64,000 nucleotides of DNA from IMG/VR virus record IMGVR_UViG_3300042460_000519, positions 1 to 64,000 of that record. One strand, 5' to 3'. This DNA is from a virus. Positions 25,107 to 50,265 of the stretch are shown here, in pieces. Below the pieces are notes generated by a model that did no database searches, was not told where the DNA came from, and was given only the letters and a program-made list of their open reading frames with translations. Within the stretch, counting starts at the first letter, position 1; each line of letters starts with the position of its first letter. The translations under genes and the position numbers were made by a program.

Positions 25107-25226
25107 ATGGCAAATTGTGGAAACTGTGGTGCTAATGTTGGATGTGGATGTCAATTAAGAGATGGCTTATGCGCAGCTTGTCGTGCTGCTGCAAATAAAG
25201 CATTAAAATTTTTTAGATTATGTTAA
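25107..25226 (+). CDS. Cys-rich microprotein (39 aa)
   Basis: Translated N terminus MANCGNCGANVGCGCQL, then CAAC, with seven Cys in 39 residues (C4, C7, C13, C15, C22, C25, C39). The spacing C-x2-C...C-x-C...C-x2-C suggests a metal-bound knot. It lies between two structural genes with a 7-base overlap to the next start and an AAATAAA leader. The same CGNCG/CGCG style opens the 479-aa adhesin. It could be a small virion part or a metal-binding helper. Confidence 0.62.
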   Translation: MANCGNCGANVGCGCQLRDGLCAACRAAANKALKFFRLC

Positions 25227-26218: not shown

Positions 26219-26239
26219 ATAAAATAAAAATAATATAAC

Positions 26240-27364: not shown

Positions 27365-27370
27365 TTACTT

Positions 27371-28477: not shown

Positions 28478-28511
28478 TCATTAAAGTTAATAAATAAAAA
28501 TAAATAAAAAC

Positions 28512-29645: not shown

Positions 29646-29674
29646 TAAAAAATAAATAAAAAATAAATAAAAAC

Positions 29675-31063
29675 ATGATAGCATTAATAACATTAGTTAT
29701 ACCAGTAGGAGGTTCTGCTGGACCATTTGATCTCTATTCAGATGCAAATGGTTATACAATTCCATTTGCAACAAATATATCAGCTGTTGTATTACAAGCT
29801 GGATATACATCTAATGTTGTTCCTGATGGTACAACTATAATTAGAGTGACTTCTGTAGGTATATGTACAAATTCTGTTGATACACCAATAAATTTAATTA
29901 CAACTACAACTACTAGTAGCACATCTACTAGTAGCACGTCAACTACGTCTACATCAACAACTGTTGCTCAAGCATGTTATGTATATGAATTAACAGCAAC
30001 AATTGATAATGCTAGTTGGACAGCACAGTTATGTTCTGGAGGTGTTACGTCAGGAGTGTTACCTTTTATTGGAAATACCTTTACAACACCTTGTATTATA
30101 AATACATCATTAGTATTAACTGGCATCACTGCTTTTACAAATTCTATTGATTGTTCAACAACCACAACAACTAGTAGTAGTTCAACAAGTACAAGTACAA
30201 GCACAAGTACCAGTACATCTACTAGCACAACTACATCAACTAGTTCTTCTACAACAACAACCACCACTACTGAATGTCCATGTTATACTTGGGATTTTGT
30301 AGTAGGTCCAACTGATGCAGCAGAAGGAGGAGTTAATCTTCAATACACTCAATGTAGTGGTGCTCTTAAAATTAGACGACAACTAACTGCAGGCACATTT
30401 AGTGTTTGCATAGGTTCAAACGAAATATATGATATAACAAAAATTGAAGGTGGAACTGTTGACGATTCAACATTAACAATAACTAGTGAATGTTGTACAC
30501 AACCACCATATACTTGTCAAACATATCAGATAAATCCTCCTGTAGACTTTGGAGATCCATCACACGTTGTGGAATATATAGATTGTGTTTCAAACATTCC
30601 ATTTACTGTATCGTTAGTATATGGTGATGGTGGTGTTCCTATATGTCAATCAAGTATAGTAAGTGATAGTAACAGCTTACTTACAGATGGACCTTTAGGA
30701 TCATGTCCAACTACAACCACAACTACTACTCCAGCTCCTTCTATTTTAAATTGGGAGTATCAAAAAACTTCACCATCAGAAGGACTTTTATCAATAGAAC
30801 TAAATAGTAGTGGTGTTTTAGCACAAACTACTGATGGTTCAGGTACAATAACACCTTGTAATGTTGGGGATATATTAGTTGTTGAAGCTATTCCTACAGC
30901 ACCAGTTGAAAACACTACAGTAGAACTTACTATAACCAATTTTTCTGGAACAGTATTTTATGAGACACAAACAGGAGGAGCATCAATAACAACACCACCA
31001 ATTACAATACTAGTAGGAGAATCTCCTTATTTAGTGGATGTGAAGTTTTATGCTGCAATTTAA
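29675..31063 (+). CDS. Adhesin-like modular protein with GPF N-terminal domain (462 aa)
   Basis: GPF domain (1-74; GPFDLYSDANGYTIPF) about as close to the previous gene's as a recent duplicate. Then linker 1, a Cys module (ACYVYELTATIDN..., about 96-160), linker 2, module CPCYTWDFVVGP...CC (about 201-268), module CQTYQINPPVDFG...GSC (about 272-340), a short poly-Thr spacer and a final beta-rich domain (about 350-462). The CPCYTWD module is the closest relative of that in the 368-aa protein, so modules have been exchanged between non-adjacent genes. Ends without a poly-Thr tail. Confidence 0.62.
   Translation: MIALITLVIPVGGSAGPFDLYSDANGYTIPFATNISAVVLQAGYTSNVVPDGTTIIRVTSVGICTNSVDTPINLITTTTTSSTSTSSTSTTSTSTTVAQACYVYELTATIDNASWTAQLCSGGVTSGVLPFIGNTFTTPCIINTSLVLTGITAFTNSIDCSTTTTTSSSSTSTSTSTSTSTSTSTTTSTSSSTTTTTTTECPCYTWDFVVGPTDAAEGGVNLQYTQCSGALKIRRQLTAGTFSVCIGSNEIYDITKIEGGTVDDSTLTITSECCTQPPYTCQTYQINPPVDFGDPSHVVEYIDCVSNIPFTVSLVYGDGGVPICQSSIVSDSNSLLTDGPLGSCPTTTTTTTPAPSILNWEYQKTSPSEGLLSIELNSSGVLAQTTDGSGTITPCNVGDILVVEAIPTAPVENTTVELTITNFSGTVFYETQTGGASITTPPITILVGESPYLVDVKFYAAI
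29896..29963 (+). repeat. Short Ser/Thr linker-coding tract
   Basis: About 22 Ser/Thr codons between the GPF domain and the first Cys module of the 462-aa protein. Confidence 0.75.
30163..30275 (+). repeat. Ser/Thr linker-coding tract
   Basis: About 37 Ser/Thr codons in the 462-aa protein. AGTACA/AGTACC units alternate with TCTACT and TCAACA. Confidence 0.8.
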
Positions 31064-31086
31064 TAATAAAATAAATAAAAAATAAA

Positions 31087-32526
31087 ATGAGTTGTTCAAA
31101 TAATATAACCCCTTGTGGATGTGGAAATAATCCATGTGGATGTGGAACTTCATCAAATGATGTTGTATACCAAGGACCTAATTTATCATGCACTGGTGTA
31201 ACAAATTGTGACACTGTTACAGAAGCAATATCAACAATAGATGGATTTATTTGTAGTCCAGAAATGGTTCAAAATATTATTAATAATATTTTAAATAATA
31301 CAAATCTATATAATCAGTTTACATCAATTGTAAATAATACAGTTGATTGTCAAACAGTGTGGGATTGTATTAACGCATCATCAACCACTACTACATCTAC
31401 CACTGCAATTCCTTGTGTTTGTACTACATATTTTATAGCAGGGTCGATGTTTAATCCTGGTGCTGTAACATATGTTCCTTGTGGAGCAACTCAAGTTGTT
31501 ACAATACAAGTAACTGATATTGTTGAAGAGATATGTGTTGATAATACATATGGTGTTATTGCAACAGGAAGTGCAAGTTTCAGTAATACATTTGATTGTT
31601 GTGTTGCATCAACCACTACAACCACCACTTTGGCTCCAACCATTACAACAACAACCACAATACCACCAACTACCACAACTACAAGTTCTAGTTCAACAAG
31701 CACTTCTACAAGTACGTCTACATCAACTAGTACATCTACTAGTACTAGCACTTCTACTTCAACAAGTACTAGTACAAGTACAACAACAACAAGTTCTAGT
31801 TCTACAACAACAACCACAACTATTAAACCTAGTTGTTCAGTATATGAACTAGAAACTACAGGTCCTGGTTCAGGTCTTGGAGAATGTGATTGGTCAGGTA
31901 TAGATTGTAATACAGGTCTTCCAGTTGGAGCAACAATTCCATACCCTGGTACTACTAGTACAGGATGTATAGTTGATAGTTCATTAGTATTAGGATCTAA
32001 AGTGGCAGTAATTTCTTCTATATCTTGTGATCCTATTGTATGGGAAGTAGATTCTCCTGGTTGTTGTGATACATCAGGACGTGAATTTATAGAACTACCT
32101 TATGATACTGTTCTAGGTGATACTGTATATGCCACAGATGGAAATTGCTATAGAGCAGTAAACACTTCTGTAGCATCTCCAACAATAACATTAGGAGATT
32201 CTACTATTTACACTGATTGTAATGACTGTGTAGCTGCACATCCTTGTCCAACTACAACCACTACAACTACTTTACTAACATGTAAAATATGGAATTGGGA
32301 AGCTATAGGACTTAATGATTCAGGTTTAGAATATACAAATTGTGATAATGTATTTACAGTTATTCCTGTAATAGATATAACAAATAATTCAGGAAGTATA
32401 TGTGTTTATCCAGGTACAACTCCTATTTGGAATCCTGGACCATCATTAGGTACTCATGAATTAGGAACAAATAATATACCTTGTGGAACACCAGCAACAA
32501 CAACTACCACTACGACAGTCGTTTAA
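31087..32526 (+). CDS. Adhesin-like modular protein with Cys-rich start (479 aa)
   Basis: Opens with MSCSNNITPCGCGNNPCGCG, then the SSNDVVYQGPNLSCTGV...VWDC module (23-94) shared with the 368-aa protein. Next come Cys module CVCTTYFIAG...CC (about 112-178), the longest regular (ST)n linker (to about 250), module CSVYELETTG...SC (about 255-320), a module CCDTSGREFIELPYDTVLGD...YTDCNDCVAAHPCP of a type common in Bacteroidota phage fibres, a short linker, module CKIWNWEAIG...CG and a poly-Thr-Val tail. Five or more separate small domains make this a long flexible fibre or decoration. Confidence 0.62.
   Translation: MSCSNNITPCGCGNNPCGCGTSSNDVVYQGPNLSCTGVTNCDTVTEAISTIDGFICSPEMVQNIINNILNNTNLYNQFTSIVNNTVDCQTVWDCINASSTTTTSTTAIPCVCTTYFIAGSMFNPGAVTYVPCGATQVVTIQVTDIVEEICVDNTYGVIATGSASFSNTFDCCVASTTTTTTLAPTITTTTTIPPTTTTTSSSSTSTSTSTSTSTSTSTSTSTSTSTSTSTSTTTTSSSSTTTTTTIKPSCSVYELETTGPGSGLGECDWSGIDCNTGLPVGATIPYPGTTSTGCIVDSSLVLGSKVAVISSISCDPIVWEVDSPGCCDTSGREFIELPYDTVLGDTVYATDGNCYRAVNTSVASPTITLGDSTIYTDCNDCVAAHPCPTTTTTTTLLTCKIWNWEAIGLNDSGLEYTNCDNVFTVIPVIDITNNSGSICVYPGTTPIWNPGPSLGTHELGTNNIPCGTPATTTTTTTVV
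31618..31830 (+). repeat. Ser/Thr linker-coding tract
   Basis: About 70 Thr/Ser codons, including about 15 uninterrupted Ser-Thr pairs in protein. AGTACT, TCTACA, AGTACG, TCTACT and TCAACT are mixed. Confidence 0.82.
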
Positions 32527-32543
32527 CTTAAAACCAACGTATT

Positions 32544-33194
32544 ATGACAGTATTAATAACCTTAACTATAGCAGGAACTGATTCAGGCCCTTTTGACCTT
32601 TATTCAAACCTTGATGGATATCTATCAGCTTTTGAGTCAGCTGTACCTAAAGCGTCATTACTTGCAGGATATCCATCATCTTTTGTTCCTGATTTCACAA
32701 CAACTATTAGAGTGAGATCAAACAATCCATTCTGTACAAATTATGTTGATATTCCTGTACAAGAACCAACTACAACTACAACTACAACTCCTAGTCCCAC
32801 TTTACCTTTGGGATCTTCAATAGGTTTTCCAGGTCCAGATACTTGTACAAGTCTAACAGTTACTTCTAGTTTTACAGATGGTGGGGGTACTTTAACTCAA
32901 CGAGGAATATGTTATAACACAACTGGAAATCCAAGTTTTGCTGATTCTATATTTGAAGGACCAGTTGTTACAGGTATTTCAACTGTTGATGTTACAGGTT
33001 TAACTCCTGGTACTACTTACTATTGGAGAGCTTATGCTATTAATGAAATTGGTATTGGTTATTATCCAACTGTTTTATCTAATCCAACAGGATTTGTGTT
33101 TTCTACAGCTCCTTGTTCAACTAGTACAAGTACAAGTACAACTACTGTTGATCCAGGTACTACAACCACCACAACCACTGGTCCAGTATTATAA
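32544..33194 (+). CDS. Short adhesin-like protein: GPF domain plus fibronectin-type-III-like domain (216 aa)
   Basis: GPF domain (1-73; GPFDLYSNLDGYLSAF, IRVRSNNPFCTNYVDI), a short Thr spacer, then a beta-sandwich-like domain (about 90-195). In it VTGLTPGTTYYWRAYAINEIGIGYYP has the L-x-P-x-T-x-Y-Y and A-x-N-x-x-G marks of FnIII-like domains common in Bacteroidota. It ends in a poly-Thr tail. Last gene of the adhesin block and followed by tandem terminators. Confidence 0.65.
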   Translation: MTVLITLTIAGTDSGPFDLYSNLDGYLSAFESAVPKASLLAGYPSSFVPDFTTTIRVRSNNPFCTNYVDIPVQEPTTTTTTTPSPTLPLGSSIGFPGPDTCTSLTVTSSFTDGGGTLTQRGICYNTTGNPSFADSIFEGPVVTGISTVDVTGLTPGTTYYWRAYAINEIGIGYYPTVLSNPTGFVFSTAPCSTSTSTSTTTVDPGTTTTTTTGPVL

Positions 33195-33368: not shown

Positions 33369-34583
33369 ATGTCTGATTATCAAAGCTTATTAGGTCAATT
33401 AGAAGAATTACTAACACAAAAAAAGAGTAAGAAATTCTATGCTCAAAGACTTGGAATAAGTGAATTTGAAGTTACTGAGCTTTTGAAGGAGCTTAGAGAG
33501 AAGGACAATTATCAAAATGTAGAAGGAAAGAGTTATATAGAAGAGCGAAAGGTAAATGTTGAAAAGGGTACAATAGAAAGTACAATCGTATCAGACTTTG
33601 ATCCTAAAGATGATCTTGAACTAGCTAAGCTACACAAGATAAATCTAGATAAATACACCATAACCAACTACTGGTCTAAGATGTTACCAAGTGGAAAGTT
33701 CACTTCCTCAGTGTTCTCCAAGAAGAAAGAAGCAAAAGATTACTCACCTGAAGACTTTGCTAAGTTTTTAGAAAACTACAAACCAAAAGAAATTAAATTA
33801 AATGTAGTAAAGTCTACTATTAATACAGAAACTATTGATTTAGAAATATCAATAGCTGATTTTCATTTAGCTAAAAAAACATTAGAAGGTGAAAGTATTC
33901 AAACAAAGAAAGAACAATTTTTATATGTATTAGTAGATTTATTAAGTAAAGCTAAAGCTTCTTTTGATATAAAAACTATTATATTTCCAATATCAAATGA
34001 TTTCTTTCACACAGATAATTACCAAAATCAAACTACAAATGGTACTCCTCAAGATGTTCTTACAGGATATGATAATGAATATGAAGAAGGGTTTGATTTA
34101 TTAGTTACAGCTATATCAATATTAAAAGCATATTCAGATAACGTTGAAGTGATCCTTGTACAAGGTAATCATGATAGAACTAAATCATTTTATTTGGCAC
34201 ACGCTTTGGATGTATTTTTCTCAAGTGTTTCTAATGTTACATTTCAAAGAGAACATTCAACAACAAAGGTTGTTATATTAGGAAATACATTTATTGGTTA
34301 TCATCATGGTAACTGTAAGATAGAAGATCTTCCTTTGTTATTTGCAACAGGTAATAATAGTGAAGCTTTTGGATGTTCTAAATACAGAGAGGTACATACA
34401 GGAGATAAACATCATTATATGGCTAAAGAAGTCAAAGGGGTTAGAATACAACAAATGCCTAGTCTTTCTGGAACAGATAGATGGCACTTAGATAATAATT
34501 ATATTAATAACATAAGAGCTGGAATAGCTACAGTGTATCATCCTGTTAAAGGACGCATTGCAGAATTTGAATCTCGTATATAA
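33369..34583 (+). CDS. Calcineurin-like metallophosphoesterase with N-terminal HTH-like region (404 aa)
   Basis: The catalytic domain (about 155-404) shows motif I D164-F-H166, motif II with N210-D211, motif III G266-N267-H268-D269, and later metal-binding His at H312/H313 and H343-TGDK-H348. This is the family of SbcD/Mre11 nucleases, phosphodiesterases and phosphatases. The first 50 residues contain KKFYAQRLGISEFEVTELLKEL, a likely helix-turn-helix, which points to DNA as substrate. It is the first gene of the tail transcription unit, unusual for a nuclease. Activity and target are inferred. Confidence 0.82.
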   Translation: MSDYQSLLGQLEELLTQKKSKKFYAQRLGISEFEVTELLKELREKDNYQNVEGKSYIEERKVNVEKGTIESTIVSDFDPKDDLELAKLHKINLDKYTITNYWSKMLPSGKFTSSVFSKKKEAKDYSPEDFAKFLENYKPKEIKLNVVKSTINTETIDLEISIADFHLAKKTLEGESIQTKKEQFLYVLVDLLSKAKASFDIKTIIFPISNDFFHTDNYQNQTTNGTPQDVLTGYDNEYEEGFDLLVTAISILKAYSDNVEVILVQGNHDRTKSFYLAHALDVFFSSVSNVTFQREHSTTKVVILGNTFIGYHHGNCKIEDLPLLFATGNNSEAFGCSKYREVHTGDKHHYMAKEVKGVRIQQMPSLSGTDRWHLDNNYINNIRAGIATVYHPVKGRIAEFESRI

Positions 34584-36785: not shown

Positions 36786-39700
36786 ATGACAGATAATACA
36801 TCTCAAGATAGTACACCACAAGGAAACATTAAATTAGAATATAATGTTGCTTCAACAGGTTTAAATTTAGATAACACTGTTAATCAAGTATCTAAAGGGC
36901 AATTGACGTATGCATTAAATGCATCTGTTGAAAACTTTGATTCTTCATCAGTTAATTATCAAAATGAACCAGGGAATGAAGCATGTATAACTTTTCCAAA
37001 TGAGTTTGTTTTAATAGGAGCACATTTTATTCAAGAAAAAAATAAACATATATTCTTTATCACAAATCCAATTACAGAAGAATCTGAAATTGGATTTATG
37101 GAAAATAATGATTGTCAGTATCAAACATTAGTTAACGCTAGTTGTTTAAATTTTAATATAAACTATCCAATACATAAAGTTGTACATAAGATTACAAATT
37201 GTACAACAGAGATATATTGGACAGATGGATTTAATCCTAGAAGATATTTAGATATTGAAAACATTCCTTGGAAATTAAAAGTTACTTCAAATCTTTGTGA
37301 TCCTACTCCTGATATAGGTAATTTAGATTGTAATCAATTAAAGTTACAACCTAATTTTAATATTCCAGAATTATCAATAGTTGATATTAGAAATGGTGGT
37401 GATTTAACTTCTGGTACATATCAATTTGCAATACAATATTCTGATGCATCTGGTAATCCATATACATCATATTATTCTGTTACAAATCCATGCCCTATTG
37501 CTGACATACGTACAACCACTCCAAATTTTAATTATCAAGTAGGAAAATCTATTGTTATAAGTATTGATAATCTTGATGAAACAGGACTTTTTCAATATTT
37601 TAATTTAGCAGTTATAAAAACAATAAATGACATTCCATCTGTAGAATTAGTTGGGACATATTTTATTGATCAATCAATAAAAAATATTACATACACAGGA
37701 CAGAATCAAACACAAATAAGACTTACGATACAAGATATATTTGAAAAGTTTCCTTATTACGAATTAGCAAATGATCTAACAGCTGTACAAGACGTTCTTG
37801 TATGGAATGGACTTACATCTATAGATAGAATAAACTATCAATCTATTGCTACTCAAATTACTTTACAGTGGCAAACATATAAAATACCTGCTACAGAAAA
37901 CTATGCTGATGAATTAAATGCTACAAACTTGCGTGGTTATCTACGTGATGAGGTGTATGCATTTGAGATTGTATTCTTATTAAGAAATGGAAAACAAACA
38001 GATGGTTTTCATATTCCTGGAAGATTAAAAAATGTTAATGAAGCATATCCAGATGTACCTAATACAAATTCTGATTTTATAGGAAATGGAACTTCTGCTC
38101 CTTATTGGAAGATATATAATACAGCTTCTGTAACAGGAACTGCTTTAGGAGATCCAATTGGAAATGCCACTCCATATCAATATGGTGAATTTGCTTATTG
38201 GGAATCAGAAGATGTTTATCCTTGTAATATAGATCTTTGGGGAGATCTTGCAGATCAACCTATTAGACATCATAAGTTTCCAGATGTTCTTGTAAGTCCT
38301 ATATTTGAATCAGTAATTTTTGGTGGAGCATCATCAATGGTTATGCAAAATGACGCTGTATTTCCTATAGGAGTTAAAATTGATATAGATCAAGTAAGAA
38401 ATTTAATTATAACATCTTCTCTTACAAAAAGTCAAAAAGATGATATTATTGGATTTAAAATAGTTAGAGGAAATAGAGGAACAAATAAATCAATTATTGC
38501 CAAAGGTATTCTTAGAAATGTTAACTCTTATAAAAGAGAAGAGCAAGAATTCTATTTTCCAAACTACCCATATAATGATCTTGATGTAGACCCTTTCTTA
38601 AATCAAAATAATAATGCATGGTTGCAAACAGCAGAACCATGGTTGATCATTGGAGAAGCACTTGAAAATGGTAAAATTATAATTCAATATACAGATTGTA
38701 ATACTGGAAAGCTTACAACAAGAGACGATATAGTTGCTGGACAAACAATAGAAATATGTGCAATTACACGTCCTATAACATTACAAGGAAAAGCTCTTAT
38801 TGGTCCAGGTAATTATGATGTTTGGTATTCTAATGCTTGTGGAGGTTGTAGAGGATATAGATTTTCTTGGGCAGATCCATTTACAGATAATAATCTTGCT
38901 TTAGTAGATAACGATCCTTATTTAGAAGGTTGTGGAATTTTTCCTGGATGTTTTTTTGGATGCGATGAAGAATGGGCTAGGGTTGATGTTGGTGGAATAG
39001 CTAGAACAGATTGTAATAATAGTTTTTGGGATGGATTTTGTAAATGCGATGCTTCTACTTTAGACGCTGCTCAAGTAGGATACACAACTCAACCAATCAA
39101 TGTTATAGATCTTAATGGTGGTACAATAAAACATCCTAGAATAGGAAGAAGATCTTCTTTAAAAACTAAAGAACAAGTTCCTTTACCAGCATTATCTCTA
39201 TCTCAAGATACAAATTATAGATATGTATTTAACTCTCCTGAAACATCATTTGGTCAACCTTTTCTAGGAACTATATTAAAACTTGAGAATGTAATATATG
39301 GTGCAGGAAAAGGTCATTTTGTACAAGTTAAAAATAATGCTAAATATAAATTACTTTCAGAAGAAGCTCAGAGAGATGCATATGCTAGTTCAGATAAAAT
39401 TGCAAATCTTGGATCATATAATGCCACTGCTTTATTTACAGCATATCAAACATACCTACAAATATATATAAATGGTATAACAAGAAAGAACTATGCTTAT
39501 TCGTTTAACTCAATAGCTAATTATGATTATTGGGCATCTATAAATAATAATCTTGGAATTAAACAAAGAGAAATAGATTATACACAATACTTAATTCCTG
39601 GTGTACAATCTGTAGGAGATCCTAATGGAATAGTTATGAATAACTTCCAACGTGAATCTTCTGTATTTATTAAAACAATAGAAGATAGAAATGGTATTCC

Positions 39701-42677
39701 TGTTACAGCTATACCTTTTCCTAGCAATAGTCCAGAAATGCTTGATGGTGGTGGTGTACCTATAGTTACAGATAAATCTAGATTTACAATTTCTAGCATT
39801 AATCATTGCGCAACTCCAGCAAAAGAAAAACAACTAACTGTAGTTTCATATTATGCTTCAATGAAAAATGATTTTGTCAATCAATGGGGACAAATATATT
39901 CATATGATACAGTTGATACAGGATTTCAAAAAAATATTACAGATAACAATTCTTCTACAATTTTTGGTGGAGATACATTTATATCTAGATTTGCATTTAA
40001 AACAAAAATTCCATTCTTTTTTGATAATAGAGTTAATGCTCCTGATGATTCAGATGTGTTCTATGATGAGATTGGTAATGTTGCATATCCAAAATACTGG
40101 CATTCTGCTAGATCCATATTAAAAAATATTGGCGACTTAACTAACTTTATTAGTTATAAAGCACATGAGTTTGATTGCCCTAATGATCCATCAAAAATAG
40201 CTCCAGCAACTACAACAGGAGCATATGGATCATATAGAACATTTTATGATGGATATTTTTATTTATTTGCATATGGTGTACCTAACTTCTATTGTGAAAG
40301 TTCTTATAACACAGACCTTAGACAAGCATTTAATAATAAAGAAGGAGATTTCTGGCCACACGTAACAACAGGTATTCCTGATGATTGGGTACAAGAAACT
40401 TATGTATCTATAGCTAATGATAATACATATACATATAATGTAACATTTTCTAAACAAAATAAAGAAAACTTCTTTAGTCATTTACCATCAGATTGGACTG
40501 ATCAATTATGTTTTACATATTTCCCATTTAGAGCAATCTATTCTGATACACAAAATCAAAATGCTGATGTAAGAGTTAATAATTGGTTAATATATAGAGC
40601 AACGTCATTATTTGATTTTCCTCAAAATTATGGATCTCTTACAGCTTTAGATGGAATTCAAAACAGAGCTATATTGGCTAGGTTTGAAAACAAAACATTA
40701 ATGTATAATAACTTATTAACTATCAATACAAGTAATCCACAAGCTGCTTATGTTGGTAACCCTAATATGTTTAGTGCTCCTCCAGTTGATTTTGCTGAAA
40801 CAGATCTTGGATATGTAGGAAGTCAAAATAAAATGTTATTAAAGATACCACAAGGACAGATCACTGTTGATGCTAAACGTGGACAAATATTTCTTATTGA
40901 AGGTACACAAGCTGTAGATCTATCTGGATTTGGTTCTGGAATGAATAGATTCTTTACAGACCATTTAGCATTTGAAATACTTAGATATTTTCCTAATGTT
41001 TCAACAGATAATCATTTTAATGGAATTGGACTTCATGGAGTGTATGACAGTAAGTTTGAAAGAATTATTCTTACTAAATTAGATTATATTCCTATTGATA
41101 AAGATATTAAATATGATGCTATAACAAAACAATTCTATTTAGAAACAATTATAGATGGCAACAGTGTCATTAGATCAGAAGTTTATTTAACAGATTCTGA
41201 TTATTTTTGTAATAAGTCTTGGACAATATCATTTAACTTCAATACAAAATCTTGGATTTCTTTTCATAGTTATATTCCTAATTGGTACATAGGAGAAAAC
41301 AATTTCTTCTATTCTGGAGTTAATGGATGTTGTACAGATATTGCAGGAGACTTTACAGCAATTGTTGGTACGCTTAATAAAATACCTCCAACTACTACTA
41401 CCACTAGTTCAACTACATCTATATCTACAACAATGGCTCCAAGACTAAAAAAAGATTGTGATTTAGAAGGTGTTATTGTTGAAACATTATGTGAATTAGA
41501 AGGAGATGCAGTTATAACAGTTCCACCATCAACAACAACAACAGTGTGTGTAAGACCATCAGACTTATCACGAATAACATTTTTATCAGGATATCAAATA
41601 GAGCCAGATCCTATTGTTGATTCAACTATAAGTTTTGAAGCTGCATGTGGTGCATTTGGTATATTAACATCTTCATCTACTGCAATTCCTGAAGGATTTA
41701 ATGTTGGTTACTCAACTTTAGAAATAGGAAGCGTTTTGTATTATGATTATAATAATAATGATTGTACATACGTACCTGATGGTTGGTATATAACACAAGA
41801 AGGATTGTATAATGGATTTGTATATTATGTAGAAGGTGGAACATTAACTTCTAAAGACTATTGTGATTGTGGAAGCACTACACCTGATACAACTGTTATT
41901 CCAAATATTCAAGAATGTTGTGGAATATTATTTTCAACTATTGATGGGGTTTATTATAGTGATACTATTACAACAGATATGGCTTTATTAAATATTCCTA
42001 ATTTCAGTTCTACATATGGAATAGCTATGACAGCTAATTACTTATGGAGTGTAACTACAGAGTTCTTAATGTGGGATATTACATTAAGTCCATTCAGTGC
42101 AACATTTAATACAGCTATACCATTCCCAGGAGCATTTACAACTTCTTCAGGAATAGTTGCATTAAACGATACAACACTAATTACAATAGGTGATTATTCT
42201 TCACCACAAGATGTTGTAGAGCTGGTTCTTGATTGCAATGTAACTCCTCCTGCATTTATTTCTACAGTTCAATTTAGTCTACAAGCAGATAGAATTGCAC
42301 TTAGTAATATGTTATATACAACTACAGAAAAATTAATTGTTATTAATCAAGATACAATAACATCTGATTATTATTTAACACAATATGAGTATCCTTCAGG
42401 AATAATTGAATTAGATTTAAATATAGGATCAATAGTTCCAACATCAATATATGAATGTGCATGTATAATATATATAACTACAAGTTTAGATGTGTTATAT
42501 ACAATAGAAAAATCATCTCCTAATTCATTAGTTGAAGTGACAACACTAACATCAAATGCATTTATTTCTGCTACACAAGTGGCAACATGTGTAGGAGGAT
42601 CGTTAATTGATAGTGTAGTAACAACTACAACAACAACCACTATTGCCATTACTACAACATCAACAACAACAGTATAA
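36786..42677 (+). CDS. Large tail nozzle/muzzle-like protein, C-terminal part replaced by adhesin modules (1963 aa)
   Basis: The first about 1,530 residues look like the podovirus nozzle (T7 gp12 / P22 gp10-like) or crass-like muzzle. It opens NTVNQVSKGQLTYALNASVENFDSSSVNYQNEPGN and continues with propeller-like blades (VLIGAHFIQEKNKHIFFITN). It ends in RIILTKLDYIP...KSWISFHSYIPNWYIGENNFFYSG, typical of the last blade. After GCCTDIAGD the character changes: TTTTTSSTTSISTT, a PPSTTTTVCVRPSD module with YSTLEIGSVLYYDYNNNDC shared with the 332-aa protein, another beta-rich domain, and a poly-Thr-Val end. The missing ancestral C terminus seems to lie in the next gene. Confidence 0.72.
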   Translation: MTDNTSQDSTPQGNIKLEYNVASTGLNLDNTVNQVSKGQLTYALNASVENFDSSSVNYQNEPGNEACITFPNEFVLIGAHFIQEKNKHIFFITNPITEESEIGFMENNDCQYQTLVNASCLNFNINYPIHKVVHKITNCTTEIYWTDGFNPRRYLDIENIPWKLKVTSNLCDPTPDIGNLDCNQLKLQPNFNIPELSIVDIRNGGDLTSGTYQFAIQYSDASGNPYTSYYSVTNPCPIADIRTTTPNFNYQVGKSIVISIDNLDETGLFQYFNLAVIKTINDIPSVELVGTYFIDQSIKNITYTGQNQTQIRLTIQDIFEKFPYYELANDLTAVQDVLVWNGLTSIDRINYQSIATQITLQWQTYKIPATENYADELNATNLRGYLRDEVYAFEIVFLLRNGKQTDGFHIPGRLKNVNEAYPDVPNTNSDFIGNGTSAPYWKIYNTASVTGTALGDPIGNATPYQYGEFAYWESEDVYPCNIDLWGDLADQPIRHHKFPDVLVSPIFESVIFGGASSMVMQNDAVFPIGVKIDIDQVRNLIITSSLTKSQKDDIIGFKIVRGNRGTNKSIIAKGILRNVNSYKREEQEFYFPNYPYNDLDVDPFLNQNNNAWLQTAEPWLIIGEALENGKIIIQYTDCNTGKLTTRDDIVAGQTIEICAITRPITLQGKALIGPGNYDVWYSNACGGCRGYRFSWADPFTDNNLALVDNDPYLEGCGIFPGCFFGCDEEWARVDVGGIARTDCNNSFWDGFCKCDASTLDAAQVGYTTQPINVIDLNGGTIKHPRIGRRSSLKTKEQVPLPALSLSQDTNYRYVFNSPETSFGQPFLGTILKLENVIYGAGKGHFVQVKNNAKYKLLSEEAQRDAYASSDKIANLGSYNATALFTAYQTYLQIYINGITRKNYAYSFNSIANYDYWASINNNLGIKQREIDYTQYLIPGVQSVGDPNGIVMNNFQRESSVFIKTIEDRNGIPVTAIPFPSNSPEMLDGGGVPIVTDKSRFTISSINHCATPAKEKQLTVVSYYASMKNDFVNQWGQIYSYDTVDTGFQKNITDNNSSTIFGGDTFISRFAFKTKIPFFFDNRVNAPDDSDVFYDEIGNVAYPKYWHSARSILKNIGDLTNFISYKAHEFDCPNDPSKIAPATTTGAYGSYRTFYDGYFYLFAYGVPNFYCESSYNTDLRQAFNNKEGDFWPHVTTGIPDDWVQETYVSIANDNTYTYNVTFSKQNKENFFSHLPSDWTDQLCFTYFPFRAIYSDTQNQNADVRVNNWLIYRATSLFDFPQNYGSLTALDGIQNRAILARFENKTLMYNNLLTINTSNPQAAYVGNPNMFSAPPVDFAETDLGYVGSQNKMLLKIPQGQITVDAKRGQIFLIEGTQAVDLSGFGSGMNRFFTDHLAFEILRYFPNVSTDNHFNGIGLHGVYDSKFERIILTKLDYIPIDKDIKYDAITKQFYLETIIDGNSVIRSEVYLTDSDYFCNKSWTISFNFNTKSWISFHSYIPNWYIGENNFFYSGVNGCCTDIAGDFTAIVGTLNKIPPTTTTTSSTTSISTTMAPRLKKDCDLEGVIVETLCELEGDAVITVPPSTTTTVCVRPSDLSRITFLSGYQIEPDPIVDSTISFEAACGAFGILTSSSTAIPEGFNVGYSTLEIGSVLYYDYNNNDCTYVPDGWYITQEGLYNGFVYYVEGGTLTSKDYCDCGSTTPDTTVIPNIQECCGILFSTIDGVYYSDTITTDMALLNIPNFSSTYGIAMTANYLWSVTTEFLMWDITLSPFSATFNTAIPFPGAFTTSSGIVALNDTTLITIGDYSSPQDVVELVLDCNVTPPAFISTVQFSLQADRIALSNMLYTTTEKLIVINQDTITSDYYLTQYEYPSGIIELDLNIGSIVPTSIYECACIIYITTSLDVLYTIEKSSPNSLVEVTTLTSNAFISATQVATCVGGSLIDSVVTTTTTTTIAITTTSTTTV

Positions 42678-42679
42678 TT

Positions 42680-43546
42680 ATGTCAAAAACTATTGTAATA
42701 AAGATAACCAAAACAGGACCTAATGCAGGACCTTTTAACATCTCCACAGAGTTTGGGGATGTTCTTGCTACAGATGTTTCTAAAAAACAATTAATAGTTG
42801 GTGTTACATATATTGTTGATGATAATGTTACAAGTATAATACTAGAATCTACAGGAAAATGTCCTGTTAAAAAATTCTTTTTTTTAGAATCTTATACCCC
42901 ATTTGAATATGCTAGTTCAGCATATGTGCAATCAAGAACAGCATGTCTATGGAGACACTTAACAAATATTCAATTGTATAATTCTTACTATGGAATTACA
43001 CAACCATATATAATAGAATACCCTTTTGCTTATCAATACCAAGATGAAATCTTGCAGAACGTAAAAGACTACACTAAAGCGTATGAATATCTTGCTATAC
43101 CAGATGGTGTATTTAATGATAACACACGAATAGAAGTTGATAACAAATGGTTTAACAAAGCTATTCTATATAATGGGCAACAGAGTTCAGGACTATTAGA
43201 ACTAGTAGCTAAACCAATGAATAATCTAAGAGCATATGGTCAATATCCAATATTCAATACTAACAGTAAAACAATCACATATACAAAGAGTGATAACTTC
43301 TATCAGTATAATACATTCTGGGCTTTAAACAAAAGTCCTTATGTTCCAATGTTCAATACAACATGTGAGTCTATGTCAATAGATAAAGTGATTAATGAAG
43401 CTAATATGGACTATGGCACTAGAAGCTTTAAGAAAGCCACGCTAAGAGCAAAAGAATTAAAGGTGAGACATATATTAGATAACAGTTCAGAAACGCATTT
43501 AGTGAGTCAATTTATAATCGCTCCTGCACAAATGTCATACAAGTAA
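42680..43546 (+). CDS. GPF domain fused to probable C-terminal piece of the muzzle (288 aa)
   Basis: Residues 1-72 are a diverged GPF domain (TGPNAGPFNISTEFGDVLATDV...TSIILESTGKCP). From about 75 the sequence is unrelated to the adhesins: SAYVQSRTACLWRHLTNIQLYNSYYGITQPYIIEYPFAYQYQDEILQNVKDYTKAYEYL. That is the kind of segment that follows the SFHSYIPNWYI blade in intact muzzle-like proteins. I infer that one ancestral gene was split by the inserted adhesin cassette and that this protein supplies the muzzle tip. 2-base gap to the previous gene. Confidence 0.58.
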   Translation: MSKTIVIKITKTGPNAGPFNISTEFGDVLATDVSKKQLIVGVTYIVDDNVTSIILESTGKCPVKKFFFLESYTPFEYASSAYVQSRTACLWRHLTNIQLYNSYYGITQPYIIEYPFAYQYQDEILQNVKDYTKAYEYLAIPDGVFNDNTRIEVDNKWFNKAILYNGQQSSGLLELVAKPMNNLRAYGQYPIFNTNSKTITYTKSDNFYQYNTFWALNKSPYVPMFNTTCESMSIDKVINEANMDYGTRSFKKATLRAKELKVRHILDNSSETHLVSQFIIAPAQMSYK

Positions 43547-43547
43547 A

Positions 43548-45626
43548 ATGAAAGGAAAAGTAAAATGCACATGTGGATGGTCATGGAACAAATCTGATTC
43601 TAGTGCTAAGGATATGTATATATGTCATGAGTGTGGTAGAGACAATAGCAACAACATGAAGAATGGTGGTTGGTTAGATAGCTATGCTGATGGTGGAACA
43701 ATGCAAGAACACCAAGAGAACTATAATGATTATAAAATTTCTGCTCCTGAAGGTTTCAAAGGAACTGGATATAGTAACGTAGGACGTAACTATTCTCCTG
43801 CATGGGGAGGACAGTTTCAAATGGGTGGTAATGTATATCCAGTTAATTATGTTCCTCAAGCACAAGAAGGAAAAACAATGTTTAAAAAACCAAGTATTCT
43901 TCAACAAGAATATATTGATCCAATATATTCATATTCTGAAAGAACAAAACTATATCCTTTAGAAGAAAAAGTATTTAAAGAAAGACCTGATGTAGCTGGA
44001 ATGGCTGCTGGAGATAATCGTGTTATTATTAATCCTTGGTCTCCAATAAGTAAAGAGATGAAAGATCTTGTCAGAACAAATGAAACTGCAAGACTTGCAA
44101 TGCGTAATGGATATCCAAGACCTGACTTTGAACTAACTCCAAAACAACAAGAGTTTTTTAACACTGTTCAAAATGGTAAACCTTATTCTGAAGACTTACA
44201 AGATATAAAAGAGACTATTGCTGCTAGAGTAATGACAGGGGATGATAGTGCACAAGACTATACTAAAGAGCAAGAGCTTTATGCAGATAAGTTATTTGAT
44301 GTATTAAAAAAATCAAAAGAATATGCTACTGGAATGTCAGGTATGATGAAATCTAAAATAGGAATGGGTAACGCTTTTGGTCATCCTGCTATTAAAAGAA
44401 TGTCACAAGCTATGCCTAAAACAGGAATGACTCCTGAAGGAACAGGAACACATTATATGTCATCTGTAGATAACTACGCTGTACCAGAATTACAAGATCT
44501 TGGTGAAGAAGAACTAACATTGGTAGATCCTGATTCTAGAAGTAGAGAAGCAATTAGATTTAATTCTCCTGAAGAAGCAAACTATTTTGCAAAAAATTAT
44601 AAAGATGTTGCTCCAATGACAAATATATTTGGAGATTTAAATAGTTTTAAAGCAGGTGGTTCTATTCCAGGAGCTGTAGGATTTACATATGCACGTACGA
44701 AAGGTATTCCTTCTAATGGTCCATATGCAAAGAAAACAATGGCTAGTGCACAGAATGGTGTAGACATGCATGGTTCCCCTATTACAGCTATTGAAAAACA
44801 TAGATATGATATAGATAGAAGTTACTATGATCCAAGAACTAATATAATGAATCTTGGATATGATTATGCTGCATCAGACGATAAAGATAAAATGATTGCA
44901 CATGAAAATTATCATGCTAAGCAACATAAAGAAGGTAGAGATAATTTTGATATAGCGCATAATACAGATAATGAGCAATGGGCAAGAATGCAAAAGCGTC
45001 CACAGATGATGACTACTCCTGAAGTTTGGAATAACTTTTATAATAGAAAAGCTATAGAGTCAGATATGATGATTAATAAAATAGCAGAGAGATTACCTGA
45101 ATCACAGTTTTTTAGAAATGCTGCAGGAGATATAATATATAATAAAATAGTTGATCCAAGACAATATAAGATTCCTTATTCTTTTGAAGGAGAAGCTGAG
45201 TATTATGAAAATACAGGAGAAGAATTTCAGAATGGAGGAGAGATGAGATATTACCAAAATGGTCTTGATTGGAAACCAAAAGGAATGAAAGATGGTGGAT
45301 GGTTAGATGCATATAAAGAAGGAGGAATCATTAAAGATGATAGAGGACAATGGGATCATCCAGGAGAGATAACAGAAATCAATTCTAATGATATAACCAT
45401 GGAAGGAGTACCTTATAATGTTCTTGGTATATCAGACACAGGAGATACAAAACTAATGAAGCCAGGAAAGAACTATAAGTTTAAAGGAAAGAAGGTTACA
45501 GAGTTTCCTATGGCTAAAAATGGATTAAGACAAGAACAAAAAGGTTTGGTGAATTTAGACAATCTACTTAACTTTACAAATTATAATAAACCACAACCAG
45601 GTGGATGGTTGAGCAAATACGAATAA
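43548..45626 (+). CDS. Virion protein with zincin-like metalloprotease domain and GGWL motifs (692 aa)
   Basis: Begins with a zinc-ribbon-like piece (C8-T-C10...C26-HE-C29). NGGWLDSYADGG (about 44-55), DGGWLDAYKEGG (about 583-594) and PGGWLSKYE at the C terminus are repeated short motifs. A domain with DNRVIINPWSPISKEMKDLVRTNETARL lies near 148-180. At H452-E453-N-Y-H456 an HExxH zinc site is followed by E504 (KAIESD), the spacing of a metallopeptidase. It may process virion proteins or open the host cell wall during entry. Protease activity is inferred from the motif only. Confidence 0.65.
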   Translation: MKGKVKCTCGWSWNKSDSSAKDMYICHECGRDNSNNMKNGGWLDSYADGGTMQEHQENYNDYKISAPEGFKGTGYSNVGRNYSPAWGGQFQMGGNVYPVNYVPQAQEGKTMFKKPSILQQEYIDPIYSYSERTKLYPLEEKVFKERPDVAGMAAGDNRVIINPWSPISKEMKDLVRTNETARLAMRNGYPRPDFELTPKQQEFFNTVQNGKPYSEDLQDIKETIAARVMTGDDSAQDYTKEQELYADKLFDVLKKSKEYATGMSGMMKSKIGMGNAFGHPAIKRMSQAMPKTGMTPEGTGTHYMSSVDNYAVPELQDLGEEELTLVDPDSRSREAIRFNSPEEANYFAKNYKDVAPMTNIFGDLNSFKAGGSIPGAVGFTYARTKGIPSNGPYAKKTMASAQNGVDMHGSPITAIEKHRYDIDRSYYDPRTNIMNLGYDYAASDDKDKMIAHENYHAKQHKEGRDNFDIAHNTDNEQWARMQKRPQMMTTPEVWNNFYNRKAIESDMMINKIAERLPESQFFRNAAGDIIYNKIVDPRQYKIPYSFEGEAEYYENTGEEFQNGGEMRYYQNGLDWKPKGMKDGGWLDAYKEGGIIKDDRGQWDHPGEITEINSNDITMEGVPYNVLGISDTGDTKLMKPGKNYKFKGKKVTEFPMAKNGLRQEQKGLVNLDNLLNFTNYNKPQPGGWLSKYE

Positions 45627-45627
45627 T

Positions 45628-48600
45628 ATGAAAGCACAATTTTTAAAAATCGCTAAGTGTAAAACTGATAAAGAGTTTTATAAAAAATATCCAACAGAAG
45701 CAGCTTTCTTCAAAGCTCATCCTGAAGCAAAGACATCTATTAAGAAAGCTCAACTAGGTGCTTATATAGGTGGTGATACTATGAAACCTGCTAAACCAAT
45801 TAATTATCAAGATATATATGATGATCTTGATAAACAACTTACTGGTAGTACAGAACGAGAAAGACTAGAGATGGCAGCAAAGCAAGCAGCAATTGCTGCA
45901 GCATCTAAATCATCTGGTGGTGGTGGAGGTTTTGACATGTCTAGTATGATGAGCATGTTTGGTGGAGGTGGTGAAGGAGGAGGCTCTGTTGGAGAAGGAA
46001 TTATGTCAAGTGGTGGTTTTGGAGCTATAGGTGGAGGTATTGGTGGAGCTAAATATGGTAAGCGTATTCCTAAAGCTCAAGTTGGAACAGATGTTAATGG
46101 TAATGGTATTCCAGATTATTTAGAAAATATCCAACCACAAATGGGCCCAACTCAAAATTTTTCTGCACAATCTTTTCCTCCATTATATTCTCCTAATGCT
46201 CAGCAGACAGGACAGAATTCTTTTCAATCTCCAAATGCATTTGCCACTCCTAATTATGGACAACAGTTCATGAATAATGCTAATCAAACTACTTCAGGTA
46301 TGAGAGGTATTCCTCAAAGTCTTCCAAGTGGTATTGGATATACACCTCCACAAGGTAGTGAAAGTGGCAATGGAGTGGGAGGAGCTTTAAAAGCACTTCC
46401 TTTAGTTGGACCAATTGCTGGTGCAATTGATGCTTTTGCAGAACAGAAAAAGATGAAGGGTTCAGCTGAACAAGCAATGCTTCTTAGTGGGCTTGCATTA
46501 GATCTTTCTAGAATGAGACCTGAACAAACAGAAAGAAAATATGTTCAACCTAAAGATAATGTAATACAACCAGGACAATTAGCTCGTGCACGTGGTGTAG
46601 GAACTAATATATTAACTAGAAATGGTGGAGCAGTTAGAAAAGCACAAGATGGTACAGTTGAAACTCCTCAAATAGATGGTGCTCCTACAGATTGGTATGA
46701 AGAAGGAATGGATAAGGATACATACTATGGATTTAAGAAACAACTTGATGATGCTGGATACCAAGCTATACCAAAACCAGAAAGTGTAAATGTTAGAGAC
46801 ATGCAAGCTATAACTGAAGAACAACCAGATCCTAATCAAATGTCTGGAGAGCAAGCAGCTGCATTTATGGAAATGTATAATAGAGATCAAGGGACATCAA
46901 CTGCAACATTTGATTCTAAATCTGCTAGAGATAACTGGGTTCAGAAAACAGGACTTCCTTGGAGTGAAGCTAAAAGACTTGGATATACATCAGGATCTGC
47001 AAAAGATAATAATAAACTATTAGCTGAATTAAATGATCCTAGATTTAAAAAAGAAAATCTAAGAACAGAAGCTCCTAAGAAAAGTTCTCAAACACGTACA
47101 CCTGTACAACATAGAGATACACCAACAGGAAAACTTGCTCCTATTAAAAAACCTCTAACTCTTGATGAATATTTTAAAGGTAAACCTAAATATACAAAAG
47201 ATCAAGGTGAGATAAGAATGCCTGATGAAGGAACTATGATTGATAGAGTTGGCGAACGTTTGGCTAATCCAGGACAGACACTTGCTAGTTTAGCTAAATA
47301 TGGAGAATTGCCTGCTAGAGGATTTTCTAAAAATGATAAAAATGCTTATGATCAAGTGCTAGGAGTTGCCAATCCTTTTTATTGGGGAAATGCTTTAGTT
47401 AATGCTAAAGATTATGTAACCCAAGGAGAATATAAAAAAGCAGCAATAGAAGCTGCTGATGCATTGCCAGCATTAGGAAAACTTAAATATACTAAATATA
47501 TACCATTCAATAAAGGTCTTCCACCTGCAAGTGTGCGTAGAGCAGGCTATTTAGGAGAAGGTGCTAAAAGACTTAAAGCTGCTCCTGCAAAACAATTACC
47601 TGCAGCTTCACCTAGAATGTTAAAGCAACCATTCACTCCTAACTTTGTTATGTATGAAGATGGTGGAGAAATACAAAATACATACGCCCCTGGTTATCTA
47701 TATGATGATCTTGGATATGAACCATTAAATGATTCTAATGTAAAACAATATTATCATGGAGGAGGCATTCCAAGAGCACAAGGTGGTTTCTCAAGTTTTA
47801 TGGGAGCAGGAGGTACAGATATGTTAAATAGTGCAGTTGGTCAAGGGTTTAACAATAGTGCAGGATATCAAATGGGTAGTGCTATTGGAAACATAGCAAA
47901 TGTAATTCCTGGTGTAGGACCTGTAGTTGGAGCTATTGCTGCACCTATTTTAGGTACTATTGGTGGAGCATTAGATCAAGCATTTGGTGATGCTGGAAAA
48001 ATAAAAAAATTCCAAGCAAAAGCAAAGAAAAATACAGAGGGTGCAGCAATGAATAATATGGCTCAAGGAATACAAGCTGGAAATGCTAGTGTAATGGAAG
48101 ATGGTGGATGGGTTAGTAATGATTGGCAACCACAAGTTATAGCTTCATTTGGTGGTCTTGACCAACAAGACTTTTATGACTATGCACATGATGGAATGGA
48201 ATCATTAAGAGCAGGAGGTCACATAAGAGGAGAATATCAACCTATTAGTAATAGAGGTATGGAACAATATGCTATGGGTGGTGAAGTTAAAACTACCTGG
48301 GGTGGACATGCTGAAACTATTTCACATAATCCATATATGCCAGGATCAGGAGAAACTATTATGTTCAGAGGAAAATCACATGATGAATCTGATGGTAATG
48401 GTAATACAGGTATAGGTGTTAAATATGGTAAGGGTGGACATGATAGCTATACAGACTATGCTGAATATGGAACTCAAGAAGCTGATGCTGATGTAGAAGT
48501 TGAAAGAGGAGAACCAGCTGCAGAATTACAAGATGCTAATGGTGAAAAGAATTTAACAGTGTATGGTAATTTAAAAATTCCTAATCAATATATAGATCTT

Positions 48601-50265
48601 TTAGGAGATCCAAAAGCTAAAGGTAAAAAGTTTAAAAACTATATAGCTGAAATTTCTAAAGATGAAGATAAAATAAGTAAAGGGATAGAAGATTCTACAA
48701 ATAAACTTAATGCATTGAATGTACAAAATTCATTTGATAAATTAAAATTAACTTCTTTACAAGCTAATATACAAGGAGCTAATATGAAACTTAAAGATAT
48801 AGCTGACAAGAAAATAAATGCAGCTCATTTACAAAATGCTATTAATGAAACAGCAGAAGAAAATGGTTTAGTTGCTGATGATCTTGCAAGAGGTAAAGTG
48901 AAAGTTAATGAAGAGGCTATGCAAGAATATGCTGAATATGGTAAGACAATCAAAAAAGCTAAAGATGGTGACAAAATCAAAGGTGATAAAATGACAGTCA
49001 AAGAAGCTATTGCAAAAGGATATAAATTAGAAGCTGATGGTAAATATCACTTAAGAACTAAATCAGAAGATATACCTGAAAAAGAAACAAAAGTGGGTGA
49101 AGCAATGGCAGAAATTCCTAAAGGACAAAAACAAACTACATCAGGAACATGGGGCAAAGTGACACCAGAACAATATGAACAATTTAAAAAAGATAATTCC
49201 TCTTGGTTTGACTTTACTAACTTTGATCCTAAGAAAAAAGATGATGTAAAATATTTCCAAAGAAGATTTAATGAAGAAGCTGCAAAAACTGGATCAACTG
49301 CAAAGGTATTTGTAGATGGTGATCTTGGAGAGCAAACTGTCACTGCAAGAATAAAAGCTGCTAAACAAAAAGATCCATCTGTAGCTACAGATAAAGTGGC
49401 AGATATATACGAAGAAGATAAAGTGTATGATGAAAATGCTAAAAAAAGAAATCCTTGGATAGATGCTGTAGGACAAGTACTTCCTTTTATTAGACCTTCA
49501 AATCAAGAAGCATTTGATCAATCTCAAATTTATCCAGAAATTAGTTCAATTGTAAATAATCGATTAGAACCTGTACAAGCACAAGGTTACCAACCTGATC
49601 TTGGCACACCATATGATATTTCTTTACAAGATCAATTAAATGCTAACCAAGCAGATTTTGATTCTATAAAAAGACTATATGCAAATAATCCATTTGCTCT
49701 TGCACAATTTGCTGCTCAGAAATATGCTGCTAATGAGAAAGTTCTTGGAGATCAATTTAGAATGAATCAAGCTGAACGTTCTCGCGTATATGATAATAAC
49801 AGAGACATTCTTAATGAGGCTAAGCTTAAGAACTTAGATATATTTGATAGACAGTATACAAGACAGGAACAAGCTAAGAGTAATACAAAAGCTGTTGCAC
49901 AAGCTGCATTAAATTCTATCACTGATAAATATGCTAAACATAAACTTCAGAATAGAGAACTTGGTATATATGAAAACTTATACAATTATAGATATTCTCC
50001 ATCAGGAAAAGCTATAAACATGAATGCTCCTTGGCAAGCTAACCTTCCTAACATGTATGATAAAGGTAGCAGAACTGCTAACATGCGTAAGGTGTATGAC
50101 GAACAAGGAAACTTTTTACGCTTTGAGCCTATTGAAGAAACTACAACAGTTACTGACGAAACATTAGATGCTGCAGGTAAAACTCCTGGTATTGGTGATA
50201 AAAAGAATGGTGGTAAAGTGAAAGCTAAAAATGGTTCTATTGTAAGCGCATACAAAAATTTATAA
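45628..50265 (+). CDS. Very large virion or cargo protein with peptidoglycan-binding-like domain (1545 aa)
   Basis: Low-complexity Gly-rich start (about 85-145; SSGGGGGFDMSSMMSMFGGGGEGGG). Short Gly-Gly motifs (NGGAVRKAQDG, EDGGEIQ, EDGGWVSNDWQ, AGGHIRGEYQ, MGGEVKTTWGG) of the type found in the 692-aa neighbour run along it. Residues about 1200-1250 resemble PG_binding_1 (D1205-DVKYFQRRFNEEA...V1229-DGDLG-EQT). A hydrophobic Gly/Ala stretch lies near 745-790. The end is helical. It lies in the place of crass-like cargo proteins and may be ejected with the genome. It ends inside the third copy of the dyad. Confidence 0.65.
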   Translation: MKAQFLKIAKCKTDKEFYKKYPTEAAFFKAHPEAKTSIKKAQLGAYIGGDTMKPAKPINYQDIYDDLDKQLTGSTERERLEMAAKQAAIAAASKSSGGGGGFDMSSMMSMFGGGGEGGGSVGEGIMSSGGFGAIGGGIGGAKYGKRIPKAQVGTDVNGNGIPDYLENIQPQMGPTQNFSAQSFPPLYSPNAQQTGQNSFQSPNAFATPNYGQQFMNNANQTTSGMRGIPQSLPSGIGYTPPQGSESGNGVGGALKALPLVGPIAGAIDAFAEQKKMKGSAEQAMLLSGLALDLSRMRPEQTERKYVQPKDNVIQPGQLARARGVGTNILTRNGGAVRKAQDGTVETPQIDGAPTDWYEEGMDKDTYYGFKKQLDDAGYQAIPKPESVNVRDMQAITEEQPDPNQMSGEQAAAFMEMYNRDQGTSTATFDSKSARDNWVQKTGLPWSEAKRLGYTSGSAKDNNKLLAELNDPRFKKENLRTEAPKKSSQTRTPVQHRDTPTGKLAPIKKPLTLDEYFKGKPKYTKDQGEIRMPDEGTMIDRVGERLANPGQTLASLAKYGELPARGFSKNDKNAYDQVLGVANPFYWGNALVNAKDYVTQGEYKKAAIEAADALPALGKLKYTKYIPFNKGLPPASVRRAGYLGEGAKRLKAAPAKQLPAASPRMLKQPFTPNFVMYEDGGEIQNTYAPGYLYDDLGYEPLNDSNVKQYYHGGGIPRAQGGFSSFMGAGGTDMLNSAVGQGFNNSAGYQMGSAIGNIANVIPGVGPVVGAIAAPILGTIGGALDQAFGDAGKIKKFQAKAKKNTEGAAMNNMAQGIQAGNASVMEDGGWVSNDWQPQVIASFGGLDQQDFYDYAHDGMESLRAGGHIRGEYQPISNRGMEQYAMGGEVKTTWGGHAETISHNPYMPGSGETIMFRGKSHDESDGNGNTGIGVKYGKGGHDSYTDYAEYGTQEADADVEVERGEPAAELQDANGEKNLTVYGNLKIPNQYIDLLGDPKAKGKKFKNYIAEISKDEDKISKGIEDSTNKLNALNVQNSFDKLKLTSLQANIQGANMKLKDIADKKINAAHLQNAINETAEENGLVADDLARGKVKVNEEAMQEYAEYGKTIKKAKDGDKIKGDKMTVKEAIAKGYKLEADGKYHLRTKSEDIPEKETKVGEAMAEIPKGQKQTTSGTWGKVTPEQYEQFKKDNSSWFDFTNFDPKKKDDVKYFQRRFNEEAAKTGSTAKVFVDGDLGEQTVTARIKAAKQKDPSVATDKVADIYEEDKVYDENAKKRNPWIDAVGQVLPFIRPSNQEAFDQSQIYPEISSIVNNRLEPVQAQGYQPDLGTPYDISLQDQLNANQADFDSIKRLYANNPFALAQFAAQKYAANEKVLGDQFRMNQAERSRVYDNNRDILNEAKLKNLDIFDRQYTRQEQAKSNTKAVAQAALNSITDKYAKHKLQNRELGIYENLYNYRYSPSGKAINMNAPWQANLPNMYDKGSRTANMRKVYDEQGNFLRFEPIEETTTVTDETLDAAGKTPGIGDKKNGGKVKAKNGSIVSAYKNL

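Follow-up and report, generated by a model that had tools for sequence, protein, structure and literature searches.

The muzzle, the tail-tip gatekeeper of the Crassvirales, is encoded by two adjacent genes in the phage analyzed here and in the large clade to which it belongs, and we consider it very likely that this split muzzle is heteromeric, with the breaks between its chains serving as points at which probable receptor-binding modules can be exchanged. The window, a stretch of 64,000 nucleotides, belongs to a virus record of 65.6 kb (IMGVR_UViG_3300042460_000519). Two muzzle ORFs were confirmed on its plus strand, coding for proteins of 1963 aa (chain 1, 36786-42677) and 288 aa (chain 2, 42680-43546). 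The genes located upstream of chain 1 include those for a crassvirus capsid protein (PF23898, E 9e-30), ring protein 2 (PF25702, E 2.8e-18) and ring protein 1 (PF24228, E 6.8e-11), and by these marker-protein matches, rather than by formal taxonomy, the phage is placed in the Crassvirales. As the closure of the crassvirus tail, the muzzle is believed to be in contact with the cell surface (PMC10172136). Intact crassvirus muzzles are already known; no earlier report of a split muzzle was found in the openly accessible literature.

The sequence-only reading had described chain 1 as muzzle-like up to a blade motif and as adhesin-like thereafter, which the coordinates bear out. The core of chain 1 (residues 1-1511, 36786-41318) matches PF25731 (E 8e-34, 117 bits against a cut-off of 27), phrog_37948 and phrog_15100, as well as four intact muzzles in blastp searches. 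It ends at the blade SFHSYIPNWYIGENNFFYSG (residues 1492-1511, 41259-41318), and the muzzle character of the protein reaches residue ~1513. The C-terminus of chain 1 is formed by a cassette located at a position that we refer to as site 2 (41319-42674), with a Thr/Ser linker at 41391-41432, modules from ~41454 to ~42620 and a poly-Thr-Val tail, TTTTTTIAITTTSTTTV, at 42624-42674. The break itself (42675-42682) consists of the TAA stop codon of chain 1, 2 nt and the ATG of chain 2. Chain 2 begins with MSKTIVIKITKTGPNAGPF and a GPF domain (residues 1-66, 42680-42877), and continues with the muzzle C-terminus (residues 67-288, stop included, 42878-43546), where CLWRHLTNIQLYNSYYG is found from residue 89. 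A junction of the same type, as had also been pointed out from the letters, is present at 32526/32544 in a pair of adhesin-type genes (31087-33194, plus strand), where a poly-Thr end (..TPATTTTTTTVV), a stop and a short gap are followed by the start of a GPF gene.

Both chains are homologous to one and the same protein. The N-terminal part of phrog_15100 matches chain 1, while columns 1588-1781 of its 1783 columns match chain 2, residues 88-286 of which correspond to the last 194 columns of the family. The blastp matches of the two chains abut on Lbo-JY46 (chain 1 at 844-1455, chain 2 at 1443-1654), FpV4 (chain 1 to 1764, chain 2 at 1768-1961), csAssE-Sib (chain 1 to 2067, chain 2 at 2043-2162) and phi17:2 (chain 1 to 2098, chain 2 at 2081-2224). 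An alignment of five intact C-termini places the join at a short hairpin between ..YFQTG.. and ..LWSHN... The profile of the chain 2 family detects the C-termini of intact muzzles with an E value of 1.7e-24; the Pfam search returned no match for the 288-aa protein, and a direct match to PF25729 was not found. These four muzzles and part of the IMG/VR loci L086-L113 are thus homologous over both chains, but they are single ORFs that lack the GPF domain. The muzzles of crAss001, DAC15 and cr108_1 are also single CDSs, and all seven muzzles checked in annotated records are single-chain. Muzzles normally consist of one chain, a property outside the Pfam definition of PF25731 and PF25729; the window muzzle, in contrast, consists of two ORFs in different frames, with the muzzle C-terminal region present on a separate chain. 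The proposal that the two proteins derive from one ancestral muzzle gene is upheld by these comparisons. It would have failed if homologous muzzles naturally ended at the break, but the four intact muzzles run on through it, or if chain 2 belonged to an independent family, which is contradicted by the phrog_15100 columns and the profile match; the split is therefore real.

The muzzle gp44 of crAss001 (7qok/7qol; PF25731 crAss_MUZ, PF25729 crAss_MUZ_C; PMC10172136) is a close known counterpart. Chain 1 shares the PF25731 match with it, and the muzzle genes are likewise positioned after those for the ring proteins. However, gp44 is one polypeptide, and where the window muzzle is split, at site 2, it has a hairpin only a few residues long. 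Site 2 was mapped by hhalign to about residues 1233-1237 of gp44. Since the IG2/crass segment of gp44 ends at 1021 (PMC10172136), site 2 is located in or next to the last part of the propeller. Length differences between muzzles have been attributed to inserts in the crass and IG2 regions rather than to a chain break, and the propeller together with the ring-joining domain is similar to the T7 nozzle (PMC10172136). Searching the PDB directly by sequence returned no muzzle, but a fold comparison did: the C-terminal model of an intact relative (L090), which is weak overall with a mean pLDDT of 50, had the crAss001 muzzle as its top match (Foldseek E 2.9e-11, Z 12.5). The podovirus nozzles (T7 tail complex 7ey7, Pa223 9nwi and GP4 8jov) came next, although no sequence match to them was found. 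When chain 2 was modelled alone, the GPF domain was confident (pLDDT about 83-92, residues 1-80) and the remainder was poor (27-58), as compared to 60-89 in most blocks of the corresponding region of the intact relative. The models hint that chain 2 co-folds with chain 1, and are read as no more than a hint because the alignments of chain 2 and of the intact relative differ in depth and diversity.

To determine how widespread the split is, IMG/VR was scanned with chain 2, and the best 80 of 405 reported relatives were kept. In these, the chain 2 homolog is preceded by an ORF with a tail that varies in length and content. Region profiles were built for the segments before site 1 (M; site 1 is a second hairpin described below), between the two sites (B) and after site 2 (C). 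Among the 115 loci scored in the first set, 27 have M, B and C in one ORF, while C is separate in the other 88. The distance from B to C is 0-54 nt in the intact loci and 349-3094 nt in the split loci, with no overlap. A second scan, started from a basal member of the clade, gave 80 loci, all of them split. The two sets overlap by 23 contigs, so that ~145 distinct IMG/VR contigs, counted from contig names, represent the clade; the split was seen in all of the members examined, so that it is not a chance pattern, and no intact member was found within the clade among the 88 first-set and 80 second-set loci. A tree of 86 dereplicated core sequences, inferred with a quick method and with the intact rows on long branches, accounts for the split by a single change (SH-aLRT 100). 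The split can thus be traced to a single event at the base of a large clade and is not peculiar to the window phage. The intact gene is likely to be the ancestral state, because all other sampled crassvirus lineages have intact genes. The core identity between the nearest intact relatives and the window is about 46-50%. A scan with one of them, L090, recovered only L090 itself and the contig of L093. No cultured members of the clade were found in the collections searched, where none of the phage records reached 80% coverage of chain 2, and one pattern scan found no copies in bacterial genomes.

That the split could be an artefact of sequencing or assembly is conceivable in that all members are metagenomic contigs and that one break at site 1, in L026, resembles a frameshift error. 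Yet ~145 contigs, obtained from many different samples, show the same arrangement at site 2, with ATG and GPF domain conserved, which rules out an assembly error at this site and leaves the explanation with a negligible probability. The organization of the break also bears on whether read-through, frameshifting or hopping might rejoin the frames, in which case the muzzle would not be truly split. The two genes are adjacent and the gaps are very short (-4 to 21 nt in 64 of the 68 dereplicated loci). However, the gap lengths are distributed across all three phase classes (33/17/14), chain 1 ends with TAA in 67 of the 68 loci, and extra genes of 0.3-2 kb are found between the chains in four loci; chain 2 starts with ATG in all 68. 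Recoding into one polypeptide is rejected by the gap frames and the TAA stops, and we regard this explanation as extremely improbable. Translation of the two chains is probably coupled. In two loci (L082, L116), the chains are separated by a complete GPF adhesin-type gene. The gap of another locus (L094:4838-6791) contains a GH108 muramidase-like gene (PF05838, E 1.9e-22) and further genes, among them a small, possibly holin-like gene and an adhesin-type gene with a Thr linker.

The GPF domain at the break has counterparts in the adhesin-type genes of the window. A profile trained solely on adhesin-type ORFs other than muzzles detects chain 2 with an iE value of 4.8e-9, which, together with the C-terminal matches above, agrees with the sequence-only reading of chain 2 as a GPF domain fused to the muzzle segment expected after the blade. 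At iE < 1e-3, the profile matched 90 split C-terminal chains and none of the intact ones. In the second set, 78 of 80 loci scored above the threshold, and the other two gave weak matches (7.8e-5 and 1.8e-3) in a filter-free search. No significant match to the GPF fold was found in the PDB. The split muzzle shares the GPF domain, the Thr-rich linkers and the type of gene-end/gene-start junction with the GPF adhesin-type genes (28512-33194), but in those genes a Thr linker and modules come after the domain, whereas in chain 2 it is followed by the muzzle C-terminus. Chain 2 is therefore not classified as an adhesin.

The cassette of chain 1, which varies among relatives, contains a module that is homologous to the gene at 25220-26218 (28.6% identity over 119 aa, E 2e-9). 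Most clade members have long cassettes, with recognizable modules in common with adhesin-type genes. After the blade, the cassette is only 24-27 aa in three loci (L079, L083, L094), and an adhesin is thus not required at site 2. Cassettes are sometimes unrelated between phages with muzzle cores that are ~92% identical. In the pair L106 and L115, both flanks are ~90% identical at the DNA level, while most of the intervening cassette has no match. A DNA search for adhesin genes gave one short match, probably of low complexity. The adhesin genes in the gaps and the shared module fit the idea that the inserted piece was a gene-end/gene-start unit originating in an adhesin operon, for which the 32526/32544 junction is a possible model.

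Median dN/dS values for 50 close pairs are 0.12 for M, 0.11 for C, 0.33 for the GPF domain and 0.56 for the cassette, the latter value covering alignable parts only. Both halves of the muzzle are under strong purifying selection. In combination with the unmatched cassettes of L106 and L115, these values show that the cassettes turn over while both halves are kept, and that the core changes far more slowly than the cassettes, which are replaced, lost or enlarged. The values also weigh on two other interpretations of the split. Chain 2, which has a domain of its own in common with adhesin-type proteins, could have left the muzzle for a new role as an independent GPF-bearing protein, with chain 1 acting alone as a shortened muzzle. 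We hold this to be very improbable, given that chain 2 is constrained like the muzzle core, immediately follows chain 1 at almost every locus and is not confidently modelled alone beyond the GPF domain, and that chain 1 would be left without the end of the propeller region. Alternatively, the break could be neutral, with halves that still assembled after the insertion and cassettes that are incidental passengers with no role in host binding. The very short post-blade stretches in some members and the weak constraint on the cassette are in line with such a scenario, but long cassettes with adhesin-type modules are kept in most members, their dN/dS is still below 1, and site 1 was opened more than once, and we consider it very improbable.

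Site 1 is the hairpin ETIIDGNSVIRS (41142-41177, plus strand), ~45 aa upstream of site 2, which is unbroken in the window but broken or insert-bearing in many relatives. The frame is also broken here in 28 loci (21 dereplicated), or approximately one third of the first set. In nearly all of these, the break consists of a stop codon followed by a new ATG, and a cassette may or may not be present. At the sequence level, these breaks give rise to three-gene muzzles. The affected loci do not form one clade (AU p 4e-41), which indicates that site 1 was broken more than once, and recombination or loss could contribute to the pattern. All of the site-1 splits seen are inside the site-2 clade, and none of the 115 first-set loci scored was split at site 1 alone. 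FpV4 and phi17:2 have in-frame inserts of ~320-360 aa near site 1. Shorter in-frame inserts that contain CC, e.g., QCCPDSYEI, are present at site 1 in the nearest intact relatives, L090 and L096. The apparent break in L026 (about 6707-6777) has no cassette, and the frames overlap with a gap of -14 nt; it is therefore likely to be a sequencing frameshift.

We propose that, in the clade ancestor, the muzzle gene took up a unit composed of a stop, an ATG, a GPF domain and possibly an adhesin on a Thr linker, at the position of an exposed hairpin not far from the C-terminal end. The insertion of such a unit into a single gene had been suggested from the sequence alone; homology and the tree show the split and its single origin, while a single insertion event is what we infer from them. 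From then on, two adjacent genes with probably coupled translation have encoded the muzzle as two chains, and chain 2 would complete the propeller end and the muzzle C-terminal region non-covalently. A six-fold assembly is expected from the homology to crAss001. The break provides two free ends, the chain 1 C-terminus with its exchangeable cassette and the chain 2 N-terminus with the GPF domain, and if both chains co-assemble in the virion, up to six copies of each could be displayed at the tail tip and bind ligands on the host surface. A more elaborate possibility, which we put forward tentatively and think rather unlikely, is that the breaks have evolved into plug-in ports in a tail tip of two or three chains, where a ring of chain 2 GPF domains docks the upstream GPF adhesins, and adhesin and lytic genes enter and leave the gap, thereby altering binding.

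A divided muzzle with variable modules at the break offers candidates for the receptor-binding parts of the tail tip and for the point from which they would project, and the split-muzzle clade makes the question of crassvirus host recognition testable. It also represents a natural case in which a large virion protein is divided in or next to a propeller, with both parts strongly constrained. This suggests that a core virus part can be re-equipped in a modular fashion without being redesigned, through fast-changing and probably host-binding modules at the breaks.

Several other features were noted in the window. The muzzle genes are followed by two large proteins without Pfam matches (43548-45626 and 45628-50265) that carry repeated GG-rich motifs, e.g., NGGWLDSYADGG, the first of which has an N-terminal Cys-rich, zinc-ribbon-like segment; judged by position only, both are possible virion cargo. 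A 404-aa protein with a metallophosphatase-like motif, VQGNHDR, is encoded at 33369-34583, between the adhesin-type and the ring protein genes. The series of adhesin-type genes at 25220-33194 has long Thr/Ser linkers and modules in common; GPF N-termini are found in the genes at 28512, 29675 and 32544, and a second N-terminal domain is common to those at 27371 and 31087, which suggests module shuffling among them. The Val/Leu-rich ORFs on the minus strand opposite the Thr/Ser linkers (25423-25794, 28571-28885, 29977-30267 and 31491-31817) are almost certainly mechanical artefacts of the linker repeats.
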